A stretch of DNA of 37,195 nucleotides from Actinotalea ferrariae (GTDB lineage: Bacteria; Actinomycetota; Actinomycetes; Actinomycetales; Cellulomonadaceae). The notes beneath the pieces are model-generated. The model was not told the origin of the DNA and searched no databases. It saw only the letters and a list, made by a program, of their open reading frames with translations. Positions within the stretch are counted from its first letter, which is position 1. Each line of letters opens with the position of its first letter. The stretch spans positions 1-37,195 of the forward strand of contig NZ_JACVQL010000052.1 of the NCBI RefSeq assembly GCF_019733465.1, read 5' to 3'. This document shows positions 11,570 through 36,881 of this stretch, in pieces. The translations under genes were made by a program, and so were the position numbers.

Positions 11570-11621
11570 GTGCGACTCCAGGGACCGGTGACCGCAGGGC
11601 GTCGTTGCCGCTGCGCAGCGT

Positions 11622-11635
11622 GATCATATACGATC
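11622..11635. promoter_or_regulatory. candidate GntR operator in the divergent promoter of the hpa cluster
   Basis: GATCATATACGATC is a 14-bp inverted repeat with six of seven base pairs matching, and it is strikingly AT-rich for this sequence. It lies between the divergent starts at 11569 and 11671, where both the catabolic operon and the monooxygenase could be controlled. FCD-type GntR regulators commonly bind short palindromes with a central TATA-like or GTATAC core. Assignment to the operon's own GntR protein is inferred. Confidence 0.5.
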
Positions 11636-11670
11636 CGAGCGCCTCGACACCGGCGTCAGGGGAGCCCGTC

Positions 11671-13587
11671 ATGCAGTTCCACCACCACGGCTACGTCTCG
11701 GGCGACCCGCGCGTGCAGCCGGCAGCCGGCGTCGGGCTCGACCGGCCGGAGGAGCTTCCCGACGAGGTCGACGTGCTCATCGTGGGTGCCGGTCCGGCCG
11801 GGATGATCGCGGCCGCACAGCTCTCGCAGTTCCCGCACCTCGTCACGCGCATCGTCGACCGCCGCGACGGACGCCTGCGGGTCGGCCAGGCCGACGGCAT
11901 CCAGGCCCGCAGCGTCGAGACCTTCCAGGCGTTCGGGTTCGCCGGGCGGATCGCCGAGGAGGCGTACCGCATCACGGAGATGTGCTTCTGGCGCCCGGAC
12001 CCGCGCGACCCCTCGCGGATCGTGCGCGGCGAGCGCCCGCCCGACGACCCCACGGGCATCAGCGAGTTCCCGCACCTCATCGTCAACCAGGCCCGCGTGC
12101 TCGACTACTTCGCCGAGTACATGGCGCACTCCCCGAGCCGCATGGCGCCCGACTTCGGCTACGAGTTCGTCGGCCTCGAGCGCACCGACGAGGGCGACCA
12201 CCCCGTGACCGTCACGCTGCTGCGCACCGCCGGGGAGCGCGCGGGCGAGGAGACGGTGGTCCGGGCCAGGTACGTGCTGGGGGCGGACGGCGCTCGCAGC
12301 CGGGTCCGCGCGTCCATCGGCTGCAGCATGCGCGGGGACCAGGCGTTCCACGCGTGGGGCGTCATGGACGTCCTGGCCGTCACGGACTTCCCCGACATCC
12401 GGCTCAAGTGTGCGATCCAGTCCGGCGAGGGCGGGAACATCCTGCTCATCCCGCGCGAGGGCGGGCACCTGTTCCGCATGTACGTGGACCTGGGCGAGGT
12501 CGGCCCGGACGACCACCACGCCGTGCGGGCCACCACGATCGACCAGATCATCGCGAGGGCGAACGAGATCCTGCACCCCTACACGCTCGACGTGCGCGAC
12601 GTCGCCTGGCACAGCGTCTACGAGGTCGCGCACCGCGTGACCGACCGGTTCGACGACGTGCCGGCGGACAAGGTCGGCACGCGGACCCCGCGGGTCTTCA
12701 TCGCCGGCGACGCCTGCCACACGCACAGCGCCAAGGCGGGCCAGGGCATGAACGTCTCGATGCAGGACGGCTTCAACCTCGCCTGGAAGCTCGGCTACGT
12801 GCTCTCGGGCCGGAGCCCGGAGAGCCTGCTCGGGACCTACTCGGCCGAGCGGCAGGTGGTCGCCCAGGCGCTGATCGACTTCGACAAGGAGTGGTCGACG
12901 CTCATGGCGAAGAAGCCGGGTGAGCTCGACGACCCGGCCGAGGTCGCGGCGTTCTACGTGCGCACCACCGAGTTCCTGTTCGGGTTCATGACGCAGTACG
13001 CGCCGTCGATGGTCGTCGCCGAGCCGACCCACCAGGCGCTCGCGAGCGGGTTCCCGATCGGCAAGCGGTTCCGGTCCGTCCCGGTGGTGCGGGTGGCCGA
13101 CGGCAACCCGCTGCACCTGGGGCACCAGCACCGGGCCGACGGACGGTGGCGCGTGTACGCGTTCGCCGACGTGGACGCCCCGGCGCCGGGATCGGCGCTC
13201 GCGCGCTGGGCGGCGTGGATGGACGAGGCTGCGGACTCCCCGGTGCAGGCACACACGCCCGCCGGCGCCGAACGGGACAGCGTGCTCGACGTCAGGCTCG
13301 TGCTCCAGCAGCCGCACGTCGACGTCGACGTCACGCAGGTGCCGCGGCTGTTCCTGCCCCGGACCGGTCCGTTCGAGCTGATCGACTACGAGAAGGTGTT
13401 CGCCGCGGACCCCGCCGAGGACATCTTCGACGTGCGCGGCGTCGACCGGGGCGGCTGCGTCGTCGTCGTGCGACCGGACCAGTACGTCGCCGCCGTCCTG
13501 CCGCTCGCGGCGACCGAGGAGCTCGCCGCGTTCTTCCGGCAGCACCTCCTCGTGCTCGACGTTCAGACGAGCAGGTCCTCGGCCTGA
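11671..13587 (+). CDS. FAD-dependent aromatic hydroxylase (phenol/3-hydroxybenzoate hydroxylase type)
   Basis: A class A flavoprotein monooxygenase of 638 residues. It shows the FAD-binding GxGxxG in VLIVGAGPAGMIAAAQL (about residues 32-50), a DG motif in YVLGADGARSRVRASIG, and the GD motif in RVFIAGDACHTHSAKAGQGM. A C-terminal thioredoxin-like domain follows, as in phenol 2-monooxygenase and 3-hydroxybenzoate 4-hydroxylase (MobA). It faces away from the homoprotocatechuate operon across 101 bp, so it probably hydroxylates 3- or 4-hydroxyphenylacetate. This would replace the usual two-component HpaB/HpaC, which are absent from the window. The ATG at 11671 follows CAGGGGAG. The 3' end overlaps the convergent cyclase gene by 25 bp. 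Confidence 0.88.
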   Translation: MQFHHHGYVSGDPRVQPAAGVGLDRPEELPDEVDVLIVGAGPAGMIAAAQLSQFPHLVTRIVDRRDGRLRVGQADGIQARSVETFQAFGFAGRIAEEAYRITEMCFWRPDPRDPSRIVRGERPPDDPTGISEFPHLIVNQARVLDYFAEYMAHSPSRMAPDFGYEFVGLERTDEGDHPVTVTLLRTAGERAGEETVVRARYVLGADGARSRVRASIGCSMRGDQAFHAWGVMDVLAVTDFPDIRLKCAIQSGEGGNILLIPREGGHLFRMYVDLGEVGPDDHHAVRATTIDQIIARANEILHPYTLDVRDVAWHSVYEVAHRVTDRFDDVPADKVGTRTPRVFIAGDACHTHSAKAGQGMNVSMQDGFNLAWKLGYVLSGRSPESLLGTYSAERQVVAQALIDFDKEWSTLMAKKPGELDDPAEVAAFYVRTTEFLFGFMTQYAPSMVVAEPTHQALASGFPIGKRFRSVPVVRVADGNPLHLGHQHRADGRWRVYAFADVDAPAPGSALARWAAWMDEAADSPVQAHTPAGAERDSVLDVRLVLQQPHVDVDVTQVPRLFLPRTGPFELIDYEKVFAADPAEDIFDVRGVDRGGCVVVVRPDQYVAAVLPLAATEELAAFFRQHLLVLDVQTSRSSA

Positions 13588-25238: not shown

Positions 25239-25739
25239 TCAGCCGAGCAGCGCCTCCACGGTGACGACGTCGCGCCAGGCTCCGTCGAGCCTGGCGTGCC
25301 GGACGTGGGTGCCGACGACGCGGAAGCCGAGCCGTTCGGCGAGGGCGAGGCTCGCGGTGTTCTCCGGGAACACGCGGCTGGTGACCTTGTGCAGACCCGA
25401 GGCGCGGGCACGGTCCAGCAGCGTCGCGAGCAGGGCACGGCCGATGCCGCAACCCTGGGCGGACGGGTCGACGTACACGGAGTACTCCGCGACGCCGTCG
25501 TAGGCGGGGCGCGCGGAGTACGGGAACGTGGCGGCCCAGCCGACGACCGCGCCGTCGACCTCGGCGACGAGGAAGGCGTGGCGCTCGGCGGTCGCGGCGA
25601 TGCGGTCCCGCATGTCGTCCGCGGTGCGGTGCTGCGTCTCGAAGGTCGCCTGACGCGAGTCGATGCCGGCGTTGTAGATGGCCGTCACGGCGGGGGCGTC
25701 GGCCGCCGTCGCGTCGCGCACCGCGACCGGGGAGCTCAC
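25239..25739 (-). CDS. arsN1: GNAT N-acetyltransferase, ArsN1-like (arsinothricin/phosphinothricin type)
   Basis: A 166-residue acetyltransferase of the PAT/BAR-like subgroup. It has VRDATAADAPAVTAIYNAGI at the start, then RIAATAERHAFLVAE, VEYSVYVDPSAQGCGIGRAL (acetyl-CoA-binding QxxGxG/A loop) and RVFPENTASLALAERLGFR. Related enzymes acetylate phosphinothricin or the arsenic antibiotic arsinothricin. Location in an arsenic island favours the ArsN1 reading, which is context-based. The GTG at 25739 overlaps the flavoprotein stop as GTGA, so the two genes are translationally coupled. The 26-codon upstream extension of the frame is not used. Confidence 0.8.
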   Translation of the reverse strand: MSSPVAVRDATAADAPAVTAIYNAGIDSRQATFETQHRTADDMRDRIAATAERHAFLVAEVDGAVVGWAATFPYSARPAYDGVAEYSVYVDPSAQGCGIGRALLATLLDRARASGLHKVTSRVFPENTASLALAERLGFRVVGTHVRHARLDGAWRDVVTVEALLG

Positions 25740-27109
25740 CGCCCCGTGACGTCGGTGAGGAGGAGCGTGCCTCGTCCGGCGACGGCCGGGACAGGTTCCG
25801 TCGTGGTGCCGCAGCACCCGCCGGACGCGGCCGTGTCCCTGCCCTGGGCGTCGACGGAGCAGACGCCCGTCTCGGGGAGGACCAGCCGGACGTCGTCGGC
25901 CGCGGCCGTGTCACCCGCGAGGGCCGCGACGACCGAGCGCACCTGCTCGTTGCCGGTCGTGATGAGGAACGTCGGTGCGCGGCCGTAGGACTTCATCCCG
26001 ACGACGAACAGGCCGGGGTCGGGCTGCGCGAGGTGGCGGTGCCCGTGCGGCGGGACGGTCCCGCACGAGTGGACCTGGGGGTCGATCAGCGGCGCGAGCC
26101 GGGCGGGCGCCTCCAGGGCGGGGTCCAGGTCGAGCTGCACCTCGGAGAGGATGCTCAGGTCCGGTCGGAACCCGGTGGCGGCGGCGATGCTGTGGACGCC
26201 CTCGACGCGTAGCTCGCCCTCGCCGGTGGTACCGACCACGGTGACAGCGTCGGTGCCTGGCTCGAGTGCGGTGACCGAGAAGCCGGTGATCAGCCGGACG
26301 GCACCGGACCGGATGAGCGAGCGCAGGTCGCTGCCCAGCGCGCCCCGGGCGGGGAGCTGGTCGACCTCCGCACCGCCGTAGACCTTCGCCGGCGAGGCGC
26401 CGCGGATCGCCCACACGACCTCGGTGCCGGGCTCCTCGGCAGCGAGCCGAGCCAGGTTCAGCAGGGTGTTGGCCGCGGAGTGTCCCGCCCCGACCACCAG
26501 GGTGCGGCGACCGGCGAACCTCGCCCGGTCGCGGCCGAGCACGTCCGGCAGCGGACCCACGAGGAACGTGCCGGCCTCCCGCTCGCCGCGTGCCGGTAGG
26601 CCGGACCCGCCGAGCGGGTTGCGCCCGGACCAGGTGCCGGACGCGTCGATCACCGCGCGGGCCGCGACGTCGTCGACGCCGGCGGCGCTCTGCACCCGCA
26701 CGAGGAACGGGCGCTCGGCGCGCCCGATGGTGTGGGTCTTGTCCATACCGGCGCGGGTCACGGCGAGCACCCGGTGGCCGAGGCGCAGGCGCTCGGAGAG
26801 CAGCCCGGCGAGCGGGCGCAGGTAGTGCTCGACGAGCTCGGCACCCGTCGGCGGGATCGGACCCTCCGGGCGTGCCCAGCCTGTGGGCGACAGCAGGGTC
26901 TCCGCGGTCGGGTCGACGATGAACTCCCACGGCGTGAACGTGCGGATGTGGCCCCACTCGCTGACCGCCGACCCGACCTGCTCGCCGGCCTCGAGGACCA
27001 GGAACGGCAGACCTCTGGCCTGGAGGTGCGCGGCGGCCGCCAGACCGATCGGTCCGGCGCCGATCACGACGACCGGCAGGTCCGTGTGGTCTCCTGAGGC
27101 GGTCCTCAT
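25736..27109 (-). CDS. FAD/NAD(P)-binding flavoprotein of the arsenic island, cysteine-rich C-terminus
   Basis: A 457-residue flavin monooxygenase-like protein. The FAD GxGxxG is in VVVIGAGPIGLAAAAHL (residues 13-29). A second nucleotide site is in TLVVGAGHSAANTLLNLARL. IAAATGFRPDLSIL is the ATG/D segment common to FMO-like enzymes. The C-terminus carries Cys417, Cys432 and Cys433 (GVC, SGGCCG), a plausible soft-metal trap. It resembles flavoproteins often found beside arsR in actinobacteria, and ArsO is a looser relative. Oxidation of a trivalent arsenical is possible but unproven. The ATG at 27109 has AAGGAG upstream. It is divergent from arsR. Confidence 0.78.
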   Translation of the reverse strand: MRTASGDHTDLPVVVIGAGPIGLAAAAHLQARGLPFLVLEAGEQVGSAVSEWGHIRTFTPWEFIVDPTAETLLSPTGWARPEGPIPPTGAELVEHYLRPLAGLLSERLRLGHRVLAVTRAGMDKTHTIGRAERPFLVRVQSAAGVDDVAARAVIDASGTWSGRNPLGGSGLPARGEREAGTFLVGPLPDVLGRDRARFAGRRTLVVGAGHSAANTLLNLARLAAEEPGTEVVWAIRGASPAKVYGGAEVDQLPARGALGSDLRSLIRSGAVRLITGFSVTALEPGTDAVTVVGTTGEGELRVEGVHSIAAATGFRPDLSILSEVQLDLDPALEAPARLAPLIDPQVHSCGTVPPHGHRHLAQPDPGLFVVGMKSYGRAPTFLITTGNEQVRSVVAALAGDTAAADDVRLVLPETGVCSVDAQGRDTAASGGCCGTTTEPVPAVAGRGTLLLTDVTGR

Positions 27110-27138
27110 CGTGCGCTCCTTCTCGTTCACCTCGAGTT

Positions 27139-27156
27139 CATCGACGTGCGTCGATG
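27139..27156. promoter_or_regulatory. candidate ArsR operator
   Basis: CATCGACG-TG-CGTCGATG is a perfect inverted repeat with 8-bp arms, lying between the divergent flavoprotein and arsR starts. A direct copy of the half-site CATCGAC recurs at 27179-27185, closer to arsR. Short palindromes of this kind in the promoter are the usual ArsR binding target. No regulator-specific consensus was checked. Confidence 0.55.
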
Positions 27157-27209
27157 CGTGTGTCACCATGGACCCGTCCATCGACTGCTGTCAATACAAG
27201 GAGGGCATC

Positions 27210-27584
27210 GTGGCCGTCGCCACCTCGAGCCCCACGGTCGTCCCGACGTCGCCCGCGCAGGTCGACGCGTGCTGCCCGGCACCGCTGCAGGACACGGCCC
27301 TCGGTGAGGCCGAGGCGGTCGACCTCGCGCGGCGGTTCGCGGCGCTCTCGGACCCTGTCCGGCTGCGGCTGCTCAGCCTGCTCGCCACCGCCGCAGACGG
27401 TGCGATCTGCGTCTGCGACCTCGTCGAGCCGGTCGGCAAGAGCCAGCCGACGGTCAGCCACCACCTCAAGGTCCTGCGCGAGGCGGGGCTGGTCACGAGC
27501 GAGAAGCGGGGGACCAACGTCTGGTACGCCGCGGTCCCCGCCGCGCTCGAGGCGCTGCGCGACGTCCTTGCCCCCCGACGCTGA
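27210..27584 (+). CDS. arsR: ArsR-family arsenic-responsive repressor
   Basis: A 124-residue winged-helix repressor. The N-terminal Cys21-Cys22 pair (DACCPAPL) and Cys67/Cys69 in AICVCDLVEPVG give the arrangement described for Corynebacterium glutamicum ArsR, where Cys15/Cys16 of one subunit and Cys55 of the other bind As(III). The recognition helix is KSQPTVSHHLKVLREAGLV, followed by a wing (SEKRGTNVWYA). It should release its operator on arsenite or antimonite. The GTG at 27210 follows AAGGAGG, and the longer open frame upstream is promoter sequence. arsC follows by 29 bp in the same direction. Confidence 0.93.
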   Translation: MAVATSSPTVVPTSPAQVDACCPAPLQDTALGEAEAVDLARRFAALSDPVRLRLLSLLATAADGAICVCDLVEPVGKSQPTVSHHLKVLREAGLVTSEKRGTNVWYAAVPAALEALRDVLAPRR

Positions 27585-27613
27585 ACCACCCACCACCCCG
27601 AGGAGCCACCTGC

Positions 27614-28036
27614 ATGACCGAGAACGCCGCCCGTCCGTCCGTCCTCTTCGTCTGCGTGCACAACGCCGGGCGCTCGCAGATGGCCGCGGGCTTCCTCGCC
27701 CACCTGTCCGGGGGCGCCGTGGAGGTGCGCTCCGCCGGCTCGATGCCCGCGGACCAGATCAACCCGACCGCGGTCGAGGCCATGCTCGAGGTGGGCGTCG
27801 ACATCCGCGACCAGCAGCCCAAGGTCCTCACCACCGACGCGGTCCAGGCGTCCGACGTCGTCATCACCATGGGCTGCGGCGACGTCTGCCCGATCTTCCC
27901 GGGCAAGCGCTACGAGGACTGGTCGCTCGACGACCCCGCCGGCCAGGGCCTCGACCCCGTCCGCGTGATCCGCGACGAGATCCGCGGTCGGATCACCGAG
28001 CTGCTGGAGCAGCTCGGCGTCCCGGCGACCCCCTAG
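27614..28036 (+). CDS. arsC: arsenate reductase, low-molecular-weight phosphatase type
   Basis: A 140-residue protein. The P-loop CVHNAGRSQ (Cys14-X5-Arg20) is the anion-binding nucleophile site, and the DDPAG segment supplies the general acid. Two more cysteines (Cys88, Cys92 in TMGCGDVCPIFPGKRYEDW) lie closer together than Cys82/Cys89 of Staphylococcus ArsC. The MGCGDxCP wording is typical of actinobacterial enzymes that use mycothiol or thioredoxin. It reduces arsenate to arsenite. No efflux pump or ArsA/ArsD is present downstream: the next gene is a convergent SorC regulator 21 bp away. GAGGAG precedes the ATG. Confidence 0.92.
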   Translation: MTENAARPSVLFVCVHNAGRSQMAAGFLAHLSGGAVEVRSAGSMPADQINPTAVEAMLEVGVDIRDQQPKVLTTDAVQASDVVITMGCGDVCPIFPGKRYEDWSLDDPAGQGLDPVRVIRDEIRGRITELLEQLGVPATP

Positions 28037-28057: not shown

Positions 28058-29095
28058 TCAGGCGTCGACCGGCCGGGGGCGCTCCGGGAGGTGGGCGAGC
28101 GCCTGGGCCGCCGTGATGTCGACGACCAGCGCGTCGACGTAGCCGTTGCGCAGGGCCGCCGCGATCGCCTCGGCCTTCTGCGCCCCCGCCGCGACGGCCA
28201 CGACCATGGGGATGCGGTGCAGAGCGGAGAGCTCGAGGCCGATGACCCGCCGGTCGAGCGTCGTCGGGACCGTCCGGCCCGAGGCGTCGACGAACCGCCC
28301 CAGGATGTGGCCGACGGCGCCGAGGCGGTGCAGCGTCCGCACGGTCTCGGACGTGACGAGGCCGCCGAAGACGCTGGCCGGGTACCGGAAGCCCGCGCCG
28401 ATGCCGATGATCGCGACGTCCACCTCGGCGCCGTGCGCGAGGGTCCGCGCCACCGCGGGCGAGCGCCGCAGGTCGTCGGCCGCGCGCTCGGACGGCGCGA
28501 GCAACGGCGCAGTCAGCACCTCGGCGGTGCCGCCGTACAGACGCGCGAGGCGTCTGCAGAGCTCGGCCGTGTCGAGCAGGCGCGTGGGTCCCTCGAGCCC
28601 ACCGACGAGCTGCACGACCCCGACGTCGAAGTCGCGCCTCGGGTGCACGTGGTCGAGCAGCGCCGTGTGGATGCGCCCGTTGGAGATGCCGAGCCGGGCG
28701 CCCGGTTCGACCACGATCTCGAGCAGGCCGGCGCACGCCTGGGCGACCTCGTCGATGCCGTCGCGCTGCGGCGACGTCGGCGCGACCCGCACGTGCCCGA
28801 CGCCGAAGCGGTTGCGGATCGTCGTCTCGAGCTCGATGACGCGCTCGAGCGGGTGCGTGATCTGGATCCGCACGATGCCCTGCACCTTCGCCTCCGCCAG
28901 CAACCGGCCTACTGTCGGTCGTGAGTAGCCGGTGGCCTGGGCGATGGCGGCCTGGCTCATGCCGAACTCGTGGTACCGGCGGGCGATGTCCAGCAGGAGC
29001 ATCGAGCGCTCCCGTTCTGGGTCCTGGTCCCAGGACCTGAGCCGTGAGCGGATGCTCGACCTGGCACTCGTCGAACCGGCGTCGTCGCTGGTCAT
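28058..29095 (-). CDS. SorC-family sugar-binding transcriptional regulator
   Basis: A 345-residue SorC/DeoR-type regulator. The N-terminal helix-turn-helix (about residues 36-75) has LLLDIARRYHEFGMSQAAIA and TGYSRPTVGRLLAEAKVQGI. The C-terminal sugar-binding domain shows the NagB-like signatures LGISNGRIHTALL, VDVAIIGIGAGFRYPASVFG and MVVAVAAGAQKAEAIAAALR. Such regulators sense a phosphorylated sugar made by the pathway they control. It is divergent from the MFS-to-UlaE operon, with a candidate operator in between, so it is most likely that operon's regulator. The ATG at 29095 is used. Confidence 0.9.
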   Translation of the reverse strand: MTSDDAGSTSARSSIRSRLRSWDQDPERERSMLLLDIARRYHEFGMSQAAIAQATGYSRPTVGRLLAEAKVQGIVRIQITHPLERVIELETTIRNRFGVGHVRVAPTSPQRDGIDEVAQACAGLLEIVVEPGARLGISNGRIHTALLDHVHPRRDFDVGVVQLVGGLEGPTRLLDTAELCRRLARLYGGTAEVLTAPLLAPSERAADDLRRSPAVARTLAHGAEVDVAIIGIGAGFRYPASVFGGLVTSETVRTLHRLGAVGHILGRFVDASGRTVPTTLDRRVIGLELSALHRIPMVVAVAAGAQKAEAIAAALRNGYVDALVVDITAAQALAHLPERPRPVDA

Positions 29096-29128
29096 CGCAC
29101 AAGGGTAGGCCGACCCCGCCCCGCCGGG

Positions 29129-29144
29129 GTGAGCATCGGCTCAC
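29129..29144. promoter_or_regulatory. candidate SorC operator in the divergent promoter
   Basis: GTGAGC-ATCG-GCTCAC is a perfect inverted repeat with 6-bp arms, 33 bp upstream of the regulator's start codon. A second, GC-rich repeat (GCACGC-GGCGCA-GCGTGC, 29196-29213) lies nearer the transporter gene. Short arms in GC-rich sequence make chance a real alternative. Confidence 0.4.
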
Positions 29145-29263
29145 GGCAGGTTCGTCGCGCGGAGGAGGCGCTGCCTAACGTCCGGACCGGTGGCAGCACG
29201 CGGCGCAGCGTGCGGCCCGAGCCACTTGTCCAGGCGTGCAACACCACACATCGAGGAGCAAAG

Positions 29264-30679
29264 GTGCACCACGAGCCCGGCACGACCGCCACGATCCCCG
29301 CGATCGAGCAGACCCCGCTGACCCGCCGTCAGCGCATGCTCGTCGGCGCGGCCGTCGTCAGCAACACGGTCGAGTTCTTCGACTTCTTCATCGTCGGCTT
29401 CATCCTCTCGATCGTCGCCGGTCCGTGGGGTCTGACCTTCGGCGAGAGCGCGGTGATCCTCCTCGCGGGCGGCCTGGGCACGACGCTCGGCGCGCTGTTC
29501 TGGGGCCGGGTCGCCGACCGCATCGGCCGCCGCCCCGCGTTCCTCTGGACCGTCGTCGTGTTCTCGGTCGCGACGGGGCTGTGCGCCGCGGTGCCGGACG
29601 GCGCCTGGCTCCTCTTCGCCTTCCTGCGTGTCGTCGTCGGCTTCGGCGTCGGCGGCCTGCCCGTCGTGGACATCCCGCTCATCTCCGAGTTCGTCCCCAC
29701 CAAGCACCGGGCCCGCCTCGCCGGCCTCACCGTGGTGTTCATCCCCGTCGGCCTGTTCCTCGGCGCGCAGGCGTCGGCCGCGTGGGGCGACGACATCGGC
29801 TGGCGCGGCCTGCTGCTCCTGGGCCTGATCCCGGTGCTGCTCGTCTTCCCGATCCGCATGATCGTGCGCGAGTCGCCGCGCTGGCTCATCCAGCAGGGCC
29901 GCGACGAGGAGGCACGCGTCAACGTCGCCTGGTACCGCGAGATGGACCCGGCCGACGTCGTGCTCCCCACCCGCGACGCCCTCGACGTGCCGCGCACCGG
30001 GTACCGCGAGGTCTGGGCCAAGCACCGCCGGGTGCTCGTCATCGCGACCGTCGGCTCGTTCTGCTTCATCACCGCCTCGGCGAGCGTCCAGGCCTGGGGC
30101 CCGACGCTGCTCACGCAGCTGCTCGAGATCACGCCCGCCCAGGCCGCCCAGATGTTCGTGCTCGTCAGCGCAGCCTCGCTCGTCGGTCGCCTCATCAGCT
30201 CGCGCCTCGCCGACCGCGTCGGCCGCCGCGCGATCATGATGGTCTGCGGCCTGGTCGGCGCGGCCTTCGTGACGACGTCGGCGCTCGCGGGCGACGTCCT
30301 CGTCGCCGGCGTCTCGCTCTTCTACCTCGGTGTCGTCGGCGCGTTCCTCTTCGGCGACGGCTCGTTCGGCGTGATCAACACCTACTCGGCCGAGATGTTC
30401 CCCTCGAACGTCCGGGCCACCGGCCTCGGGCTCGCCTACGGCCTCGGCGCCCTGGGCAAGGTCTTCGGCCCGGCGCTCCTCGCACTCGTGTCCGGCAGCA
30501 GCAACCTCATCACGCCCCAGGCGACGCAGGACGCGGTCAAGCCGGCCTTCCTCATCATGGCCGGCCTCCTCGTGGTCGGCGCCCTCGTCTACAGCCGGGC
30601 GCCCGAGACCAAGGGCAAGACGTTCGAGCAGCTCGACGCGGGGAACAGCACCCCTGCCCGCGAGCCGGTCCCGGCATGA
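29264..30679 (+). CDS. MFS sugar/sugar-acid transporter
   Basis: A 471-residue permease with about 12 membrane helices. Sugar-porter signatures are present: FWGRVADRIGRRPAFLW between helices 2 and 3, RESPRWLIQQGRDEEA before the central loop, SRLADRVGRRAIMM in the second half, and APETKGKTFEQL at the end. It would import a free, unphosphorylated substrate by proton symport, in contrast to the PTS import of the E. coli ula system. The GTG at 29264 follows GAGGAG, and the longer open frame upstream is promoter. It is the first gene of an eight-gene operon under the divergent SorC regulator. Confidence 0.88.
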   Translation: MHHEPGTTATIPAIEQTPLTRRQRMLVGAAVVSNTVEFFDFFIVGFILSIVAGPWGLTFGESAVILLAGGLGTTLGALFWGRVADRIGRRPAFLWTVVVFSVATGLCAAVPDGAWLLFAFLRVVVGFGVGGLPVVDIPLISEFVPTKHRARLAGLTVVFIPVGLFLGAQASAAWGDDIGWRGLLLLGLIPVLLVFPIRMIVRESPRWLIQQGRDEEARVNVAWYREMDPADVVLPTRDALDVPRTGYREVWAKHRRVLVIATVGSFCFITASASVQAWGPTLLTQLLEITPAQAAQMFVLVSAASLVGRLISSRLADRVGRRAIMMVCGLVGAAFVTTSALAGDVLVAGVSLFYLGVVGAFLFGDGSFGVINTYSAEMFPSNVRATGLGLAYGLGALGKVFGPALLALVSGSSNLITPQATQDAVKPAFLIMAGLLVVGALVYSRAPETKGKTFEQLDAGNSTPAREPVPA

Positions 30680-30762
30680 GCACGCCGGACGCGAGCACCT
30701 CCCGGGCGGCGCAGCGCCCCACCCCAGACCACCGCACAGCACCACCGATGGAAGGAACTCCC

Positions 30763-31698
30763 ATGGCAACGGTCCGCACGGTCCTCGGCGACATCGACAC
30801 GGCCGAGATGGGCTACACGATGCCCCACGAGCACATCCTCACGAACCCGCAGGGTCACGGGAGCAAGAACGAGGAGGACCACCTCCTCAACAGCTACGAC
30901 AAGGCCGTCCAGATGCTCACCGAGTACCGCGAGATCGGTGGCGGCACGATCATCGAGGCCACGCCGAAGACGTGGGGCCGCAACGCGGCCGGCATGTACA
31001 AGGCGGCGATGGAGACGGGCGTCCACGTCATCGCGTGCACCGGCTACATCTGCCAGGAGCACGGCATGGAGCCGAACATCACCGAGCGCGGCGTCGAGGA
31101 CATCGCGCGCGAGATGGTCGAGGACCTCACGGTCGGCATGGACGGCACCGACGCCAAGGCCGGCTGGATCAAGGTCGGCACCGCCTACATGCACGTCACA
31201 CCGGGCGAGGACATGGTGATCCGCGCCGCCGTGCACGCCGCCAACGCGACCGGTGCGCCGATCAGCACGCACACCACCGGCGGCACGATGGGCATCGAGC
31301 AGCTCGAGATCGCGGCCTCGGAAGGCTTCGACCTCACGCGCATGACGATCGCGCACGTCGACCGCAACCCGGACCTCTGGTACCACCGCAAGATGCTCGA
31401 GACCGGCGCGTCGATCATCTACGACGGCCCTGGCAAGGCGAAGTACTACCCGGACAGCATCCGCATCGACCTGCTCCGCCAGCTCGTCGCCGACGGCTTC
31501 GGCGACCAGCTCATGATCTGCAACGACATGGGCCGCCGCTCCCACCACACGGTCTACGGGTTCGGGCCGGGCTGGCAGTGGATCAAGGAGCGCTTCATCC
31601 CGCGCCTCCTCGAGGAGGGCTTCAGCGAGGAGCAGGTCCACAAGTTCATGTACGAGAACCCCGCCCGGTCGTTCGCGTTCGCCGCACCGGTGGCGTGA
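30763..31698 (+). CDS. phosphotriesterase-family metal-dependent lactonase
   Basis: A 311-residue amidohydrolase-fold enzyme. The binuclear metal site is complete: His22 and His24 (MPHEHI), Lys137 to be carboxylated (WIKVGTAY), His170 (STHTTGG), His198 (IAHVDRN) and Asp255 (ICNDMG). The spacing follows phosphotriesterase closely. Several bacterial members of this family hydrolyse sugar lactones or lactone phosphates, not organophosphates. In this operon it would open a sugar lactone to the acid, a job done by the unrelated UlaG in E. coli. The ATG at 30763 follows GAAGGA, 83 bp after the transporter. Confidence 0.88.
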   Translation: MATVRTVLGDIDTAEMGYTMPHEHILTNPQGHGSKNEEDHLLNSYDKAVQMLTEYREIGGGTIIEATPKTWGRNAAGMYKAAMETGVHVIACTGYICQEHGMEPNITERGVEDIAREMVEDLTVGMDGTDAKAGWIKVGTAYMHVTPGEDMVIRAAVHAANATGAPISTHTTGGTMGIEQLEIAASEGFDLTRMTIAHVDRNPDLWYHRKMLETGASIIYDGPGKAKYYPDSIRIDLLRQLVADGFGDQLMICNDMGRRSHHTVYGFGPGWQWIKERFIPRLLEEGFSEEQVHKFMYENPARSFAFAAPVA

Positions 31699-31703
31699 CG
31701 ACC

Positions 31704-32357
31704 ATGCCCGCCATCCAGCTCGCGCTCGACACGCGCGACACGCAGACCGCCGTGGCCGCGGCGCACGCGACGCGCGACGTGGTCGACGTCATCGAGGCCG
31801 GTACGGTCCTGGTCCTCCACGAAGGGCTCGGGGCGGTGCGCGTCCTGCGCGCCGCGTTCCCCGACCACCCGCTCGTGGCGGACATCCGGATCGCCCGTGC
31901 GGGGGCGAAGTTCGCGGCCCTCGCCTTCGACGCCGGCGCCGACCGCGTCACCGTCGTCGGCGAGGCCGGGATGCACGTCGTCGAGGGCGCGCTGTCCGCG
32001 GCCCGGAGCGCCGGCGGCGAGGTCGAGGTCGAGCTGGGTGCGGGCTGGACGCTCGACGACGTCGGGCGGTGGGTCGACGCCGGCGTCCGGCACGTCATCG
32101 CGCACCGGTCCGGCAACGGCTTGCTGCGGGACGACGACGAGATCGCCCGGACGCTGGAGCAGCTGGCGTCGATCGATCTCGGGCCGGCGCAGGTCACGCT
32201 CGCCGGCGGCATCGACGCCGGTGACCTGGCGGAGACCCGGCTCCCCTTCGACACGGTGGCGATCGGCTCCGCCATCGTGGGGGCGGCGGACCCGCGCGCC
32301 GCGGCGTCCGCGTTCCGGGCCGAGCTCGCACGAGCGAGAGAGGTGAGGGTGGCATGA
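31704..32357 (+). CDS. UlaD-like (3-keto-L-gulonate-6-phosphate decarboxylase family) protein with altered active site
   Basis: A 217-residue barrel of the orotidine-5-phosphate decarboxylase suprafamily. It aligns almost gap-free with E. coli UlaD as I recall that sequence. Conserved are Asp9, Glu31 (VIEAGT), Asp60, Glu110 (EVELGAG) and His134 (IAHRS). Changed are the catalytic Lys64 and Asp67 of UlaD (Arg62 and Arg65 here), Arg139 (Gly137) and the phosphate-binding Arg192 (Ser189). An unphosphorylated or otherwise different substrate is therefore likely. Decarboxylation remains an inference. The gene begins 5 bp after the lactonase stop and overlaps the kinase by 4 bp (ATGA). Confidence 0.8.
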   Translation: MPAIQLALDTRDTQTAVAAAHATRDVVDVIEAGTVLVLHEGLGAVRVLRAAFPDHPLVADIRIARAGAKFAALAFDAGADRVTVVGEAGMHVVEGALSAARSAGGEVEVELGAGWTLDDVGRWVDAGVRHVIAHRSGNGLLRDDDEIARTLEQLASIDLGPAQVTLAGGIDAGDLAETRLPFDTVAIGSAIVGAADPRAAASAFRAELARAREVRVA

Positions 32358-33313
32358 CCAGGTACGACATCACCGCGATCGGCGAGGGAGGGCTCCGGCT
32401 CTCCGTGCCGAGCGGCACCCGGCTCGAGCGCACCCCGACGCTGGACGTGAACGTCGCGGGCACCGAGGCGAACGTGCTCTCGGGCCTCGCATCGCTGGGC
32501 TGGCGCGCCGGCTGGGTGAGTGCCCTGCCGAAGACCCCGATGGCGCGCCGCGTCGAGTTCGAGCTGCGCTCGCACGGGGTCGACCTCGCCGGGGTCGTCC
32601 GCACGGACACCGGGCGGCTGGGCACCTACTACGTCGAGTACGGCGCCGCGCCGCGCCCGACGCACGTGTACTTCGACCGCGCCGACACGGCGTTCACGCA
32701 GATGACCACGGCCGACGTCGACTGGGACCTCCTGCTCGACACCCGCGTCATCCACCTCACCGGCATCACGGCAGCGCTGTCGCCGAACGTGCTCGAGATC
32801 CTCACCGAGGTGCTCGACCGGGCCGAGGCAGCGGGCGTGCCGGTCTCGTTCGACGTCAACTACCGCGCGAACCTCTGGCCGGCCGACGTCGCGGCCGAGG
32901 TCCTGCGCCCGTTCGTCGAGCGCGCCGAGATCCTCTTCGTCCGCGCCGACGACCTCGCGCAGCTCTACGACCTCGGTCCCGAGCCCGAGCAGGCGCTCGA
33001 CCAGGTCTGCGCCATGACGCGGGCCCGGCACGTGGCCCTCACGTGCGGCGACCTCGGGGTGCTCGCCTCGATCGACGGCGCGCGGGTCAAGGCCTCGGCC
33101 CGGCCGGTGGACATCGTCGACCGCCTCGGTGCGGGCGACGGCTTCGCCGCCGGCTTCCTGCACGCCTGGCTCGACGGCGACGTCGACGAGGCCGCCGAGC
33201 ACGGCGTCGTCATGGCCGCCCTCGCGCTCGCCCAGGTCGGCGAGCAGGTCGTCACCACGCGCGAGGAGCTCGCGGCGACGCTGCTGGACTCCGCCTCCCG
33301 CCTGCGCCGCTGA
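32354..33313 (+). CDS. PfkB-family carbohydrate kinase (2-keto-3-deoxygluconate kinase-like)
   Basis: A 319-residue ribokinase-fold kinase. The N-terminal sugar-binding motif is VAGTEANVLSGLASLGWRAG. SFDVNYRANLWP is typical of the KdgK subgroup. The C-terminal PfkB signature is VDRLGAGDGFAAGF, with the anion hole GAGDG at 259-263 and Asp262 as catalytic base. It uses ATP to phosphorylate a keto sugar or keto acid. In this operon, L-xylulose or a 3-keto acid are candidates. The ATG overlaps the UlaD-like gene's stop, which suggests the two proteins are needed in step. Confidence 0.87.
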   Translation: MTRYDITAIGEGGLRLSVPSGTRLERTPTLDVNVAGTEANVLSGLASLGWRAGWVSALPKTPMARRVEFELRSHGVDLAGVVRTDTGRLGTYYVEYGAAPRPTHVYFDRADTAFTQMTTADVDWDLLLDTRVIHLTGITAALSPNVLEILTEVLDRAEAAGVPVSFDVNYRANLWPADVAAEVLRPFVERAEILFVRADDLAQLYDLGPEPEQALDQVCAMTRARHVALTCGDLGVLASIDGARVKASARPVDIVDRLGAGDGFAAGFLHAWLDGDVDEAAEHGVVMAALALAQVGEQVVTTREELAATLLDSASRLRR

Positions 33314-33402
33314 ACCACCACGACCGCACCGCGCCGGCGCACGTCGCCGACGCGCAGGGCCGGCGCGCCCACGCACCTGCGATCCCTCACCAAGGAGACC
33401 TG

Positions 33403-34344
33403 ATGACCACGACAGACATCGCGAGGACCCGGACCGACTGGGTCGGCGAGGCGAACGACGTCGCCCGTCGCATCCGAGCACGCGTGCTCGAGCTGACCAT
33501 CCTCAAGGACGGCTGCTACCTCAGCCAGGCGCTCTCGTCCGCGGACCTGCTGGCCGCGCTGTACACGCGGGTCCTCCGGCTGCAGCCCCTCGCCGAGCCG
33601 CTCGGCTCGGCACCCTTCTCGGGCGTCCCCGGCAGCGCGGACCCGTCGCCGTCGGGCGGCCGGTTCCACGGCGAGCGGACGCCCGACGGCGACCGCTTCC
33701 TCATCTCGCCCGCCCACTACGCCGTCGCGATCTACGCGGCGCTCGAGTCGGTCGGGCGGCTCGCCCCGGGTGCCCTCGAGAGCTTCAACACCGACGGCAG
33801 CACGCTCGAGATGATCGGCGCCGAGCACTCGCCCGGCTTCGAGCTCACGACGGGCTCGTTCGGCCAGGCGCTCAGCCAGTCCGCCGGCATCGCGTTCGCC
33901 CGGCGGCTGCGCGGCGAGACGGGGCGCACGGCGGTGTTCGTCTCCGACGGCGAGCTCGAGGAGGGGCAGACCTGGGAGGGCGTCCAGGCAGCCGCCTTCT
34001 ACGGGCTCGACAGCCTCATGCTCTTCGTCGACGTCAACGGGCAGCAGGTCGACGGGCTCACCAAGGACGTGATGAACGTCGAGCCGATCGACGCGCGGTT
34101 CGCGGCTTTCGGCTGGGACGTCCGCGTGCTCGACGGGCACGACGTCGAGGCCATCGCCGCTGCCGTCGAGAGCAAGGTCACCGACGGCCGGCCGCTCGTG
34201 GTCCTCGCCTACACCGACACCGCCCGCGGCGTGCCCTACCTGAACGCCCGCAAGCCGCACCTGCACTACGTCCGAGCCAAGAGCGACGCCGACCGCGAGG
34301 CCTTCGACAAGGCGCTCGCCGAGCTGAAGGGGGAACTCGCGTGA
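33403..34344 (+). CDS. transketolase, N-terminal (ThDP pyrophosphate-domain) subunit
   Basis: A 313-residue split transketolase subunit. It carries the pyrophosphate-binding half: ISPAHYAVAIYAALESVG, TGSFGQALSQSAGIAFARRL, and the GDG-like metal segment VSDGELEEGQTWEG followed by the distal Asn in VDVNGQQVDG. It must pair with the next gene product to be active. Split forms are used in specialised sugar pathways; one, in apiose catabolism, acts on apulose-4-phosphate. Here the expected job is feeding D-xylulose-5-phosphate into the pentose phosphate pathway. A strong AAGGAG precedes the ATG, 89 bp after the kinase gene. Confidence 0.92.
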   Translation: MTTTDIARTRTDWVGEANDVARRIRARVLELTILKDGCYLSQALSSADLLAALYTRVLRLQPLAEPLGSAPFSGVPGSADPSPSGGRFHGERTPDGDRFLISPAHYAVAIYAALESVGRLAPGALESFNTDGSTLEMIGAEHSPGFELTTGSFGQALSQSAGIAFARRLRGETGRTAVFVSDGELEEGQTWEGVQAAAFYGLDSLMLFVDVNGQQVDGLTKDVMNVEPIDARFAAFGWDVRVLDGHDVEAIAAAVESKVTDGRPLVVLAYTDTARGVPYLNARKPHLHYVRAKSDADREAFDKALAELKGELA

Positions 34345-35336
34345 TCGAGACCCAGGTCCACTCCCGCAACATCGTCGACTGGGCGGCCGACAAGCCGGAG
34401 GCGGTCGTGCTGTCGGGCGACCTCACCGGCTCGACCGAGATCGCCGCCTTCAAGGCCGCGTACCCCGAGCGCTTCTTCAGCCTCGGCATGGCCGAGCAGA
34501 ACATGCTCAGCTGGGCGGGCGGCATGGCGCGCGAGGGCTTCGTGCCCTACCTGCACACCTTCTCGGTGTTCCTCGTGCGACGGCCGTACGACCAGCTCGC
34601 GATGTCCGTCGCCTACCCGAACCTGCCCGTCAAGCTCGTCGGCTTCCTGCCGGGCATCATGACGCCGGGCGGCGTGTCCCACCAGGCCATCGAGGACATC
34701 TCGCTCATGCGGGGCCTGCCGAACATGACTGTGCTCGAGGTCGGCGACGCGGCGGACGTGGAGTCCGTGCTCGACGTCGCGCACGCGGTCGACGGGCCGG
34801 TCTACATCCGGATGCTGCGCGGCGCCCTGCCGCGGCTCTTCGACACCCCGATGGAGCTCGACCGCGTGCGTCACCTCGCCGACGGCGAGGACGTCACGCT
34901 GTTCTCGGCGGGCATCACGACCGAGGAGGCCATCCGCGCGCGGCACGTGCTCGAGGCGGCGGGCATCAGCGTCACCCACCGGCACGTCACGACGCACAAG
35001 CCCTTCGACGACCCCGCGATCGCCGACGCGATCCGGGCCGCCGGGTCGCTCGTCGTGACCGTGGAGAACCACTCCGTCATCGGCGGGCTCGGGTCCGAGG
35101 TGGCCGAGCGGATGGCCGAGATCGGTGCCGGCACGCGCCTCGTGCGCATCGGCATCCCGGACACGTTCGCGCAGGGTGCCTCGGCGCCCTACCTCATGGA
35201 CAAGTTCGGCCTGACGGCGCCGCGGATCGTCGAGCGCATCGGCGCCGAGCTCGGCCGCCACATCCCCGTCCCGGACGACCTCGGGTCGCACGACGTCACC
35301 ATCGACGTCGGCGCCGAGCAGCTCGAAGCGCTCTGA
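34341..35336 (+). CDS. transketolase, C-terminal (pyrimidine-domain) subunit
   Basis: A 331-residue partner of the preceding subunit. The Pyr domain contains the cofactor-activating glutamate in FFSLGMAEQNMLSWAGGMAR, and YLHTFSVFLVRRPYDQLAMS and THGGVSHQ-like GGVSHQAIEDISLMR follow. A transketolase C-terminal domain ends the protein (VTVENHSVIGGLGSEVAERM). The GTG start overlaps the previous stop as GTGA, ensuring matched amounts of both subunits. The gene is 10 bp ahead of the epimerase gene, so it belongs to the same operon. Confidence 0.92.
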   Translation: MIETQVHSRNIVDWAADKPEAVVLSGDLTGSTEIAAFKAAYPERFFSLGMAEQNMLSWAGGMAREGFVPYLHTFSVFLVRRPYDQLAMSVAYPNLPVKLVGFLPGIMTPGGVSHQAIEDISLMRGLPNMTVLEVGDAADVESVLDVAHAVDGPVYIRMLRGALPRLFDTPMELDRVRHLADGEDVTLFSAGITTEEAIRARHVLEAAGISVTHRHVTTHKPFDDPAIADAIRAAGSLVVTVENHSVIGGLGSEVAERMAEIGAGTRLVRIGIPDTFAQGASAPYLMDKFGLTAPRIVERIGAELGRHIPVPDDLGSHDVTIDVGAEQLEAL

Positions 35337-35346
35337 GGGGGTCGGA

Positions 35347-36009
35347 ATGCTGGAACAGCTCAAGGCCGAGGTCTGCCAGGCCAACCGGGACCTGCTCGCG
35401 CACGGCCTCGTGGTCGGCACGTCGGGGAACGTCAGCCAGCGCGACGGGCACAGCGGGCTCGTCGTCATCAAGCCCTCGGGGGTCGCGTTCGACGCGCTGC
35501 GTCCCGAGGACATGAGCGTCGTCGACCTCCAGGGGAACGTCGTCGAGGGGCCGTACAAGCCCTCGGTCGACACGGCGTCGCACGTCTACGTGTACCGCGC
35601 GCGGCCCGACGTCCACGGCGTGGTGCACACGCACTCGCCGTACGCGACCACGTTCGCGATCCGCGGCGAGCCGATCCCCGTGCTCACGACGACGCACGCG
35701 TCGCTCTTCGGCGGGCCGATCCCCATCTCGGGGTACGCCGTCATCGGCGAGGAGGAGGTGGGCCGCGAGATCGTCGCGCACGTGGGCGACGGCACCTCGG
35801 TGCTCCTGCGCTCGCACGGCGTCTTCACCATCGGCACGGACGCCCAGCGTGCGCTGCGCGCCGCGCTCTACACCGAGGAGTGCGCCGAGGCCGCGCACCT
35901 CGCGATGCTGCGCGGGTACGTCGAGCCCATGGCCCCCGACGTCGTCCGCGCGTCCCGGGAGTGGTACCTCTACGGCTACGGGCAGCAGCCGGTGGGAGCG
36001 GGCTCGTGA
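35347..36009 (+). CDS. class II aldolase/adducin-family protein, UlaF/AraD-like 4-epimerase
   Basis: A 220-residue protein aligning with L-ribulose-5-phosphate 4-epimerases (AraD, UlaF). SGNVSQRDG and VIKPSGVAFDALRPEDM bind phosphate. Zinc ligands are His94 and His96 (VVHTHSPYAT) and His157 (LRSHGVF). The PSVDTASH segment carries the catalytic Asp75. It would convert L-ribulose-5-phosphate to D-xylulose-5-phosphate, the link to transketolase. Fuculose-type aldolases share the fold, but context and the PSxDTASH wording favour the epimerase. The ATG at 35347 follows GAGGGGGTCGG. It overlaps the next gene by 4 bp. Confidence 0.85.
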   Translation: MLEQLKAEVCQANRDLLAHGLVVGTSGNVSQRDGHSGLVVIKPSGVAFDALRPEDMSVVDLQGNVVEGPYKPSVDTASHVYVYRARPDVHGVVHTHSPYATTFAIRGEPIPVLTTTHASLFGGPIPISGYAVIGEEEVGREIVAHVGDGTSVLLRSHGVFTIGTDAQRALRAALYTEECAEAAHLAMLRGYVEPMAPDVVRASREWYLYGYGQQPVGAGS

Positions 36010-36881
36010 TCCGCCGGCACGGGGTCGCCAACCTCGTCGGCGTCTACGAGAAGGCGCTCCTCCCCGGGACGCCCGGCGAGCTGGCCGTGGCGGCGGCGGA
36101 GGCCGGGTACGACTTCCTCGAGCTCGCCGTCGACGAGACCCCGGAGCGGATGACCAGGCTCGGCTGGAGCACGAGCGAGCGGGGCGCCGTCCGACGCCGG
36201 GTCACGGCGGCAGGGGTGCCGATCGGGACGGTCGTGCTCAGCGCGCACCGGCGCTCGCCGTGGGGGAGCGCGGACCGCGCGGTCCGGTCCGAGGCCGCAC
36301 GCCTCGCACGGCAGAGCATCGATCTCGCGGCCGACGTCGGCGCGGGCTGCGTCCAGGTGGCCGGCTACTTCACGTACTACGAGCCCACCGGCCCGTCGTC
36401 GCGCGGCTGGTTCCTCGACGGCCTGGCCACGGCCGCAGCGCACGCGGCCGAGCGCGGCGTCGTCCTCGCGCTCGAGAACATGGACGGCACCGACGTGCGC
36501 AGCGTCGAGGAGGCGCTCGCCGTCGTGCGGGAGGTTCCCGGGGTCCGGCTCTACGTCGACGTCGGCAACCTGGCGGGGAACGGGCTGGACGTCGTCGGCC
36601 AGCTCGCGGCGGCCCTGCCGCACACGCACGCCGTCCAGCTCAAGGACGCCCGGCCGGGGCTCTTCCGGCGGGTGCCGTTCGGTGAGGGGACGGTGCCGTT
36701 CGGGGACGTCCTCGCGCTGCTCGACGCGGTCGGCTACACGCGTCCGCTCTCGGTCGAGATGTGGAACGACGACGGCGACCCGGCGCTGGCGGCCGACGCA
36801 CGGCGGTGGCTGCAGGCCGCGGCCGACGAGGCGCTCGCCGCCGCCGACCACGGTCACGACTGCAGCTGCCAGGCGGGGTAG
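36006..36881 (+). CDS. UlaE-like L-xylulose-5-phosphate 3-epimerase, metal ligand changed
   Basis: A 291-residue TIM-barrel (AP endonuclease 2 family) protein. It shares long segments with E. coli UlaE/SgbU: AEAGYDFLELAVDE, VQVAGYFTYYE, KDARPGLFRRVPFGEGTV and LSVEMWNDDG. Expected metal ligands are Glu157, Asp185 and Glu251. The fourth, His211 in UlaE, is Gln211 here (AVQLKD). The tail DHGHDCSC is rich in His and Cys. It would turn L-xylulose-5-phosphate into L-ribulose-5-phosphate. The GTG start overlaps the preceding stop (GTGA). This is the last gene of the operon. Confidence 0.85.
   Translation: MIRRHGVANLVGVYEKALLPGTPGELAVAAAEAGYDFLELAVDETPERMTRLGWSTSERGAVRRRVTAAGVPIGTVVLSAHRRSPWGSADRAVRSEAARLARQSIDLAADVGAGCVQVAGYFTYYEPTGPSSRGWFLDGLATAAAHAAERGVVLALENMDGTDVRSVEEALAVVREVPGVRLYVDVGNLAGNGLDVVGQLAAALPHTHAVQLKDARPGLFRRVPFGEGTVPFGDVLALLDAVGYTRPLSVEMWNDDGDPALAADARRWLQAAADEALAAADHGHDCSCQAG

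Follow-up and report, generated by a model that had tools for sequence, protein, structure and literature searches.

We examined an eight-gene operon on the forward strand (29264-36881) of a 37,195-nucleotide contig of Actinotalea ferrariae (NCBI RefSeq assembly GCF_019733465.1, contig NZ_JACVQL010000052.1; "the window" means this whole stretch), and conclude that it is, with a probability we put at roughly 65%, a divergent member of a module resembling the ula (L-ascorbate) catabolic genes and free of the phosphotransferase system (PTS). The module as such is quite likely a kinase-based ula pathway, and the window holds in one locus the module content of the sister operons, i.e., a SorC-type regulator, one lactonase, a UlaD-like decarboxylase, UlaE- and UlaF-like epimerases, a PfkB-family kinase, and a non-PTS porter. 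A preliminary description of the window had proposed a PTS-free, ula-like pathway that needs no dehydrogenase, and this is supported by our comparisons, in which a phosphotriesterase-family (PTE) lactonase takes the slot of UlaG and PfkB is found where the PTS is missing. Its remark that the gene set had no known description holds within the open-licence literature searched; no description of a kinase-based, PTS-free ula module was found there, most of the subscription literature being outside the reach of the search.

The ula-like module in other genomes

Among 297 genomes of the order, 44 contained some match to the window UlaD, and 14 genomes besides the window's own reached E <= 1e-31 in a search made without any motif pattern; all 14 loci were examined, together with two distant homologues as controls. 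PfkB and SorC genes were present at all 14 loci and a PTE gene at 13, the remaining one (L041) carrying UlaG, while the two controls (L053 and L054, of the hexulose-phosphate synthase (HPS) type, 19.5-kb regions) had no partner gene by tblastn at 1e-6. Controls without partners, set against 14 of the 14 best order loci with them, indicate that the grouping exceeds chance. UlaE relatives at E <= 1e-20 occurred in 14 other genomes of the 297, 13 of which are among the 14 with the UlaD cluster. When 248 genomes of the order were searched with the window PfkB, 13 others scored 187-215 bits before a drop to 144 bits, and 12 of these 13 sit in UlaD clusters; the thirteenth (genome G052, locus L226) keeps PfkB, a major facilitator superfamily (MFS) porter, AraD, and SorC, without PTE, UlaD, or UlaE.

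A species-level scan (one genome per species, an 11-sequence UlaD alignment, two patterns) gave 80 named loci, the best 80 of 100, which span Bifidobacteriaceae, Actinomycetaceae, Propionibacteriaceae, Corynebacterium, Mycobacterium, Ornithinimicrobium, Chloroflexi, Trueperaceae, Spirochaetes, Acidobacteriaceae, Pleomorphomonas, and others. Seven of the 14 order loci are identical to seven of the 80, and loci within one phylum are not independent of each other. Gene-content counts rest on tblastn; open reading frame (ORF) calling missed genes at some loci. There are three main layouts, in which a SorC gene stands opposite PTE-UlaD-UlaE-(AraD)-PfkB-MFS, opposite UlaG-ABC transporter-UlaD-UlaE-(AraD)-PfkB, or opposite PTE-UlaA-UlaB-UlaC-UlaD-UlaE-UlaA-AraD without PfkB; in Pleomorphomonas, UlaD-PfkB-MFS-UlaG adjoin a relative of UlaR.

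The evidence that carries the pathway proposal is which gene takes the place of which. At 58 of the 80 loci UlaD has flanks of 6.5 kb or more in both directions (the other 22 were excluded for short flanks), and within 9 kb of UlaD these hold either a PTE (46 loci) or UlaG (12 loci), with no locus having both and none having neither. The UlaG proteins of the module share 62-76% identity with E. coli UlaG across 351-354 residues (in each of 17 rows; those of L041 and L089, from one organism, are one gene, located ~8 kb off on the opposite strand). PfkB occurs in 56 of the 58 loci and is missing only in two with an ascorbate PTS, both from Chloroflexi metagenome-assembled genomes (L070 and L119), where UlaA, UlaB, UlaC, and a second UlaA-like gene accompany a PTE of the operon type; UlaE is found in 54 and AraD in 43. 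On a UlaD tree of 73 labelled rows, the lactonase type changes at least four times, the phosphorylation type at least once, and the porter at least twice. On the simplest reading, PTE and UlaG would perform the same step and PfkB would do the job of the PTS, adding the 6-phosphate. UlaG is an ascorbate 6-phosphate lactonase, and PTEs of the operon type are also found beside the PTS. The most probable order therefore puts phosphorylation before lactone opening, so that PfkB would replace the PTS as a 6-kinase acting ahead of both lactone opening and decarboxylation. PMC3219644 describes UlaG in regulons with the PTS.

From gene content, homology, and these replacements, we infer the reactions, their order, and the kind of substrate as follows. 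The MFS porter would import L-ascorbate in free form, or a closely related 2,3-enediol lactone, PfkB would phosphorylate its 6-hydroxyl with ATP, and the PTE-family enzyme would open the phosphorylated lactone to 3-keto-gulonate 6-phosphate. UlaD would then decarboxylate this to a pentulose 5-phosphate (L-xylulose 5-phosphate if the substrate is ascorbate), which UlaE and UlaF would epimerise to D-xylulose 5-phosphate; in the window, a split transketolase would pass this product into the pentose phosphate pathway, and SorC would sense a pathway metabolite. The substrate of the window copy may thus be ascorbate or a stereoisomer or relative of it, and for L-ascorbate itself we would give slightly less than even odds.

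Genes of the Actinotalea operon

Every operon protein scored above the Pfam cut-off in the family that had been named for it from the sequence, and together with the ORFs this confirms the gene inventory. The PTE-family (COG1735) lactonase of the Lmo2620-like branch (30763-31698; PF02126, 220 bits) is followed by the UlaD-like protein, a putative 3-keto-sugar-acid 6-phosphate decarboxylase of the OMPDC/HUMPS family (31704-32357), in which DxRxxR replaces the DxKxxD motif. The PfkB kinase (32354-33313; PF00294), the candidate ATP-dependent 6-kinase in place of the PTS, groups with the sister-operon kinases, and the solved structures that match it best carry the names 2-keto-3-deoxygluconate kinase or PfkB-family kinase; enzymes of the former type transfer phosphate to a sugar acid at its 6-hydroxyl. 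Downstream lie the UlaF/AraD-like 4-epimerase of the class II aldolase family (35347-36009; NF005123, 269 bits, cut-off 251) and the UlaE-like L-xylulose/L-ribulose 5-phosphate 3-epimerase, a TIM barrel (36006-36881; NF009689, 213 bits, cut-off 200), for which E. coli UlaE (3cqh) is the single solved relative at 1e-8. NCBIfam points to the same families as Pfam, with these two as the only operon proteins that pass its cut-offs. The MFS porter at the head of the operon (29264-30679; PF07690/PF00083), the proposed importer of the free lactone or acid, is 45% identical to the MFS protein of the Cutibacterium avidum operon; among NCBIfam models, an aromatic acid/H+ symport model is nearest (196 of 419), with sugar porters behind (133 of 238).

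Between UlaD-PfkB and the epimerases, the window carries the two halves of a transketolase, the N-terminal subunit (33403-34344; PF00456, with the thiamine diphosphate motif-like DGELEEGQ...N) and the C-terminal subunit (34341-35336; PF02779/PF02780). The host genome has seven Transket_pyr loci, of which that in the window is the weakest match. Searched against the 80 loci, the window transketolase queries gave no match at 1e-10; at 1e-6 the C half still had none and the N half two weak ones (L080 and L125; 28-31% over 163-174 residues), and one N-half-like frame in L102 was recovered by ORF BLAST and not seen by tblastn. The preliminary description was right that the operon has its own split transketolase, which stands for the window; as a part of the module the pair is rejected, as no such pair exists in the 80 related loci. 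Judged from these searches, it is an add-on confined to the window copy among the loci compared.

The SorC/DeoR-type sugar-binding regulator (28058-29095, reverse strand; PF04198, 197.8 bits) is divergent from the operon and likely its local regulator, and a SorC relative adjoins most sister operons. The 168 bases in between (29096-29263) are a probable operator/promoter region and contain an inverted repeat at 29170-29197 with overlapping 16-nt arms that are complementary at 75%; a promoter scan of the window found no sigma-70 consensus in this region, and a terminator scan found nothing behind the operon. Along the operon, the gaps between genes are 83, 5, -4, 89, -4, 10, and -4 bases, i.e., five of seven junctions are 4-base overlaps or at most 10 bases apart, and all eight frames are intact with a third-position GC content of 0.95-0.98. 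The window yielded no homologue of E. coli UlaA, UlaB, UlaC, UlaG, YiaK, the YiaMNO transporter, or LyxK. A search of the whole host genome with E. coli UlaA was also empty, with no positive control genome run alongside; the same query does pick up relatives of 43-44% identity in L070 and L119 by tblastn.

Elsewhere in the window, the genes beside the operon at 25736-28036 (an ArsR-type regulator, a low-molecular-weight phosphatase-like gene of the ArsC type, and a flavoprotein) resemble an arsenic locus, and at 9917-13587 a three-domain thiamine pyrophosphate enzyme is divergent from a phenol-hydroxylase-type FAD monooxygenase. Scans for Rfam families and tRNAs gave no hit in the window.

Departures of the window copy and rival explanations

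Family and fold place the window UlaD with 3-keto-L-gulonate 6-phosphate decarboxylase (KGPDC), though the KGPDC-type DxKxxD is absent from it. The tree sets it on the side of KGPDC and separates it from HPS at a support of 100/99; as it ends a long branch (2.86), its exact place is unsure. An AlphaFold model made with a 12-row alignment gave a complete barrel (mean pLDDT 90.5, the loop at 139-142 uncertain). In a fold comparison, E. coli KGPDC entries matched it best (Z 31.0, rmsd 1.6, 210 aligned), ahead of HPS (Z 28.8, rmsd 2.1, 208 aligned). Compared with E. coli KGPDC, it keeps D11, E33, D62, E112, H136, G171, and G191, and differs at K64 (R), D67 (R), R139 (G), T169 (A), and R192 (S); solved entries of KGPDC mutants reflect, by their titles, the supposed importance of K64, E112, H136, R139, and T169. 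R64 and E67 are universal in 93 UlaD rows from other loci (seven loci in twice), giving the module motif DxRxxE, from which the window departs in that it keeps R64 and has R for E67. One scan pattern included the R and E of this motif, so its conservation in the 80 loci is partly by construction; DxRxxE is also found in the 14 order genomes, which were gathered without the pattern. K64 and D67 are found in UlaD of E. coli, Lactobacillus-type, Pantoea, and Vibrio operons and in all HPS-like homologues examined, so that a K64R/D67E subfamily appears to accompany the module, the window protein going further with R67. An identity as HPS is rejected for the window UlaD by the supported tree split, and also by residues, since DxKxxD is retained in the HPS-like homologues examined, with D at the position of KGPDC E112. 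The two distant controls (rows L024 and L025) have DxKxxD, and HPS-like proteins with DxKxxD were also seen in small-genome members of the class (1.2-1.6 Mb, family f44; L140-L142 and L144-L146).

A number of observations weigh against the membership of this operon in a kinase-based ula module, or against parts of that proposal. Its UlaD scores 152 of 250 bits against the curated NCBIfam UlaD model, under the cut-off, and breaks 7 of 31 invariant positions in a leave-one-out comparison, the highest of 34 rows; E67 and R192 are kept in 93 of 93 other rows and R139 in 92, and the window has R, S, and G at these positions. The position of UlaE H211 is Q in the window and H in all other rows except the doubtful L085, which looks broken, and that of UlaF D120 is S in the window and D in nearly all others, with E in two; we take both to be catalytic sites. 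By score, the nearest relatives of the window PTE are lactonases of other operons, ahead of the PTE of the sister operons. No close orthologue of the operon was found, the best identity being 44-47%. Regarding the module, a PTS together with this type of UlaD is seen in only two loci from closely related metagenome-assembled genomes, so that the replacement between PfkB and PTS rests here on one event, and a Levilactobacillus brevis plasmid operon combines UlaG, a DxKxxD UlaD, and an FGGY kinase with a PTS component, which means that kinase and PTS genes are not mutually exclusive in general. Further, Bifidobacterium indicum (L046, in genome G237, and L097) has PTE-UlaD-PfkB-MFS with UlaE and AraD missing at the locus, and two UlaE queries found no UlaE homologue in the single-contig G237 genome; its near relative G068 has UlaE on another contig. 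This leaves three readings for G237: a broken pathway, a substitute epimerase, or a product other than L-xylulose 5-phosphate.

The window UlaF keeps D76 and both His of the HTH motif and breaks 1 of 34 invariant positions, and UlaE breaks 4 of 30, second after L085. The exceptions at D120 elsewhere are L070 and L119, with E (E-N against the usual D-E), and L082, with a gap; the solved AraD entries 1jdi and 1k0w differ at this position. The best relatives of the window PTE, in genomes G051, G205, and G014, score 173-213 bits against 147-162 bits for the operon PTEs, and a place for it in the sister-operon branch is rejected on these scores; its best solved relative is 3pnz, and the C. avidum sister PTE is nearest 3msr. 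The PTE genes of G051 and G205 adjoin an FGGY kinase and a sugar ABC transporter, the G205 locus also having a creatininase and, judged by eye, a frame resembling 2-keto-3-deoxy-6-phosphogluconate aldolase, and that of G014 (L225) lies on a short contig with a SorC-type regulator. The catalytic-site changes and the other PTE branch would fit either fine-tuning of the enzymes or a new substrate.

The alternative that survives best, unlikely in our estimate, is that the module was retuned in the window to a stereoisomer or analogue, e.g., D-isoascorbate leading to a D-pentulose 5-phosphate, and that it retains the kinase-lactonase-decarboxylase core but has altered epimerases; this overlaps with our preferred explanation, which leaves the exact lactone open. 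In the window, catalytic sites of UlaD, UlaE, and UlaF and position 13 of PfkB have changed but the reading frames and codon use remain intact, a transketolase pair has been added, and the PTE comes from another branch. The window UlaD has HPS-like letters at 139, 169, and 192; the HPS family handles D-ribulose 5-phosphate, and by their entry titles the E112D/R139V/T169A mutants of KGPDC were crystallised with that compound, so these letters are a weak hint of a D-pentulose product. On the other side, UlaE and UlaF are still present, which L-ascorbate would need and a D-ribulose product would not, and PfkB is otherwise ordinary, breaking 1 of 30 invariant positions (G for the Q that stands at 13 in 73 of 73 other rows, leave-one-out). 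No relative with the same changes was found. Only 1 of 18 other genomes of the genus had any match (34%, HPS-like by its residues), which leaves the operon in 1 of 19, the window's own; among the matches listed from 394 genomes of the class, no other exceeded 42%, and all matches in 83 plasmid records were under 60%, the 20 listed being at most 40%. With no close orthologue at hand, conservation of the window's changes is not demonstrable. The fullest version, in which PfkB is an ATP-dependent ascorbate 6-kinase and the window represents a stereoisomer-retuned DxRxxR branch with repurposed epimerases and its own transketolase, is more speculative still.

Improbable, in comparison, is the order of steps proposed in the preliminary description, in which the free lactone would be opened, the free 3-keto acid decarboxylated, and the pentulose then phosphorylated by PfkB. 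It could draw on the changes at UlaD R192 and at Y278 of the lactonase, both of which we take to lie near the phosphate in characterised relatives. Yet HPS-like proteins, members of a sugar-phosphate-binding family, also lack R192, and five residues that we presume to form the phosphate site of 3msr (K217, K244, Y245, R275, and Y278) correspond to R, K, Y, K, and Y in 54 of 55 operon PTEs and to R, K, Y, R, and H in the window, which at four of the five keeps K, Y, and R, with R for K. Decarboxylation before phosphorylation is also unsupported by established biochemistry, in which the substrates of KGPDC, UlaE, and UlaF are phosphates. Operons with the PTS, such as L070 and L119, where the lactone arrives phosphorylated, also hold relatives of the operon lactonase and UlaD, and UlaG homologues alongside PfkB point to a phosphorylated lactone as well.

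We regard as marginally less probable again that the operon is a formerly functional ascorbate operon decaying under relaxed selection. Changed catalytic positions in three enzymes, and the confinement of the operon to a single genome of the genus, would be expected of decay, but eight intact and tightly packed frames with high third-position GC would not, nor would the 29 of 30 and 33 of 34 invariant positions kept by PfkB and UlaF. Least likely of all is apiose- or apionate-type catabolism with a split transketolase as in AptAB: a split transketolase, a TIM-barrel isomerase-like protein, and a kinase are also features of apulose 4-phosphate pathways, but the TIM-barrel protein here passes the UlaE-type model and has UlaE as its only solved relative at 1e-8, and the UlaD homologue and the sister operons indicate 3-keto-gulonate chemistry (no direct comparison with Apt sequences was part of this).

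Relation to known systems and meaning

The E. coli ula regulon (UlaABC, UlaG, UlaD, UlaE, and UlaF) shares with the window the slots of lactonase, UlaD, UlaE, and UlaF, and the window UlaD, UlaE, and UlaF are 39-45% identical to their E. coli counterparts over the aligned parts. In contrast to that regulon, no PTS or UlaG was found in the window, which has PfkB with an MFS porter and a PTE instead, SorC replaces UlaR, and a split transketolase is added. The E. coli yiaK-S operon and its Pantoea version with an MFS porter are alike in being PTS-free with a kinase and homologues of UlaD, UlaE, and UlaF; there, the YiaK reductase route starts from 2,3-diketogulonate and the kinase is of the FGGY type, whereas the window lacks a reductase and has a lactonase of the PTE family with a PfkB kinase. 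In the same order, genome G212 (L275) has SorC, an ABC transporter, an FGGY kinase, a more distant UlaD, UlaE, and AraD together, possibly a yia-like version, so that the slot of the kinase can also be occupied by an FGGY enzyme, as in yiaK-S.

With the COG1735 proteins Lmo2620 (3pnz) and Mycoplasma synoviae MS53_0025 (3msr), presumably phospho-lactonases in function, the window shares the PTE family, the metal-binding HxH, and most of the presumed phosphate-site residues, and differs in having H in place of Y278. Ralstonia eutropha is comparable in that it reportedly uses ascorbate independently of the usual ula genes, by a separate route with other genes (Stack et al. 2020). An ascorbate pathway of this organism is mentioned in PMC11066805 and PMC7873064, and the latter states that typical ascorbate genes were not found in its genome.

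The module is widespread, with many species of Bifidobacterium, Cutibacterium, and Actinomyces carrying what appears to be the same pathway. If the kinase-based reading is true, bacteria of several phyla, including Bifidobacterium, Cutibacterium, Actinomyces, Corynebacterium, and Chloroflexi species, would be able to break down vitamin C by a route independent of the ascorbate PTS. This reading would predict a new enzyme activity, a PfkB-family ascorbate 6-kinase, give a role to a group of orphan PTE-family lactonases, and add a Lys-to-Arg active-site variant to a well-studied decarboxylase family.

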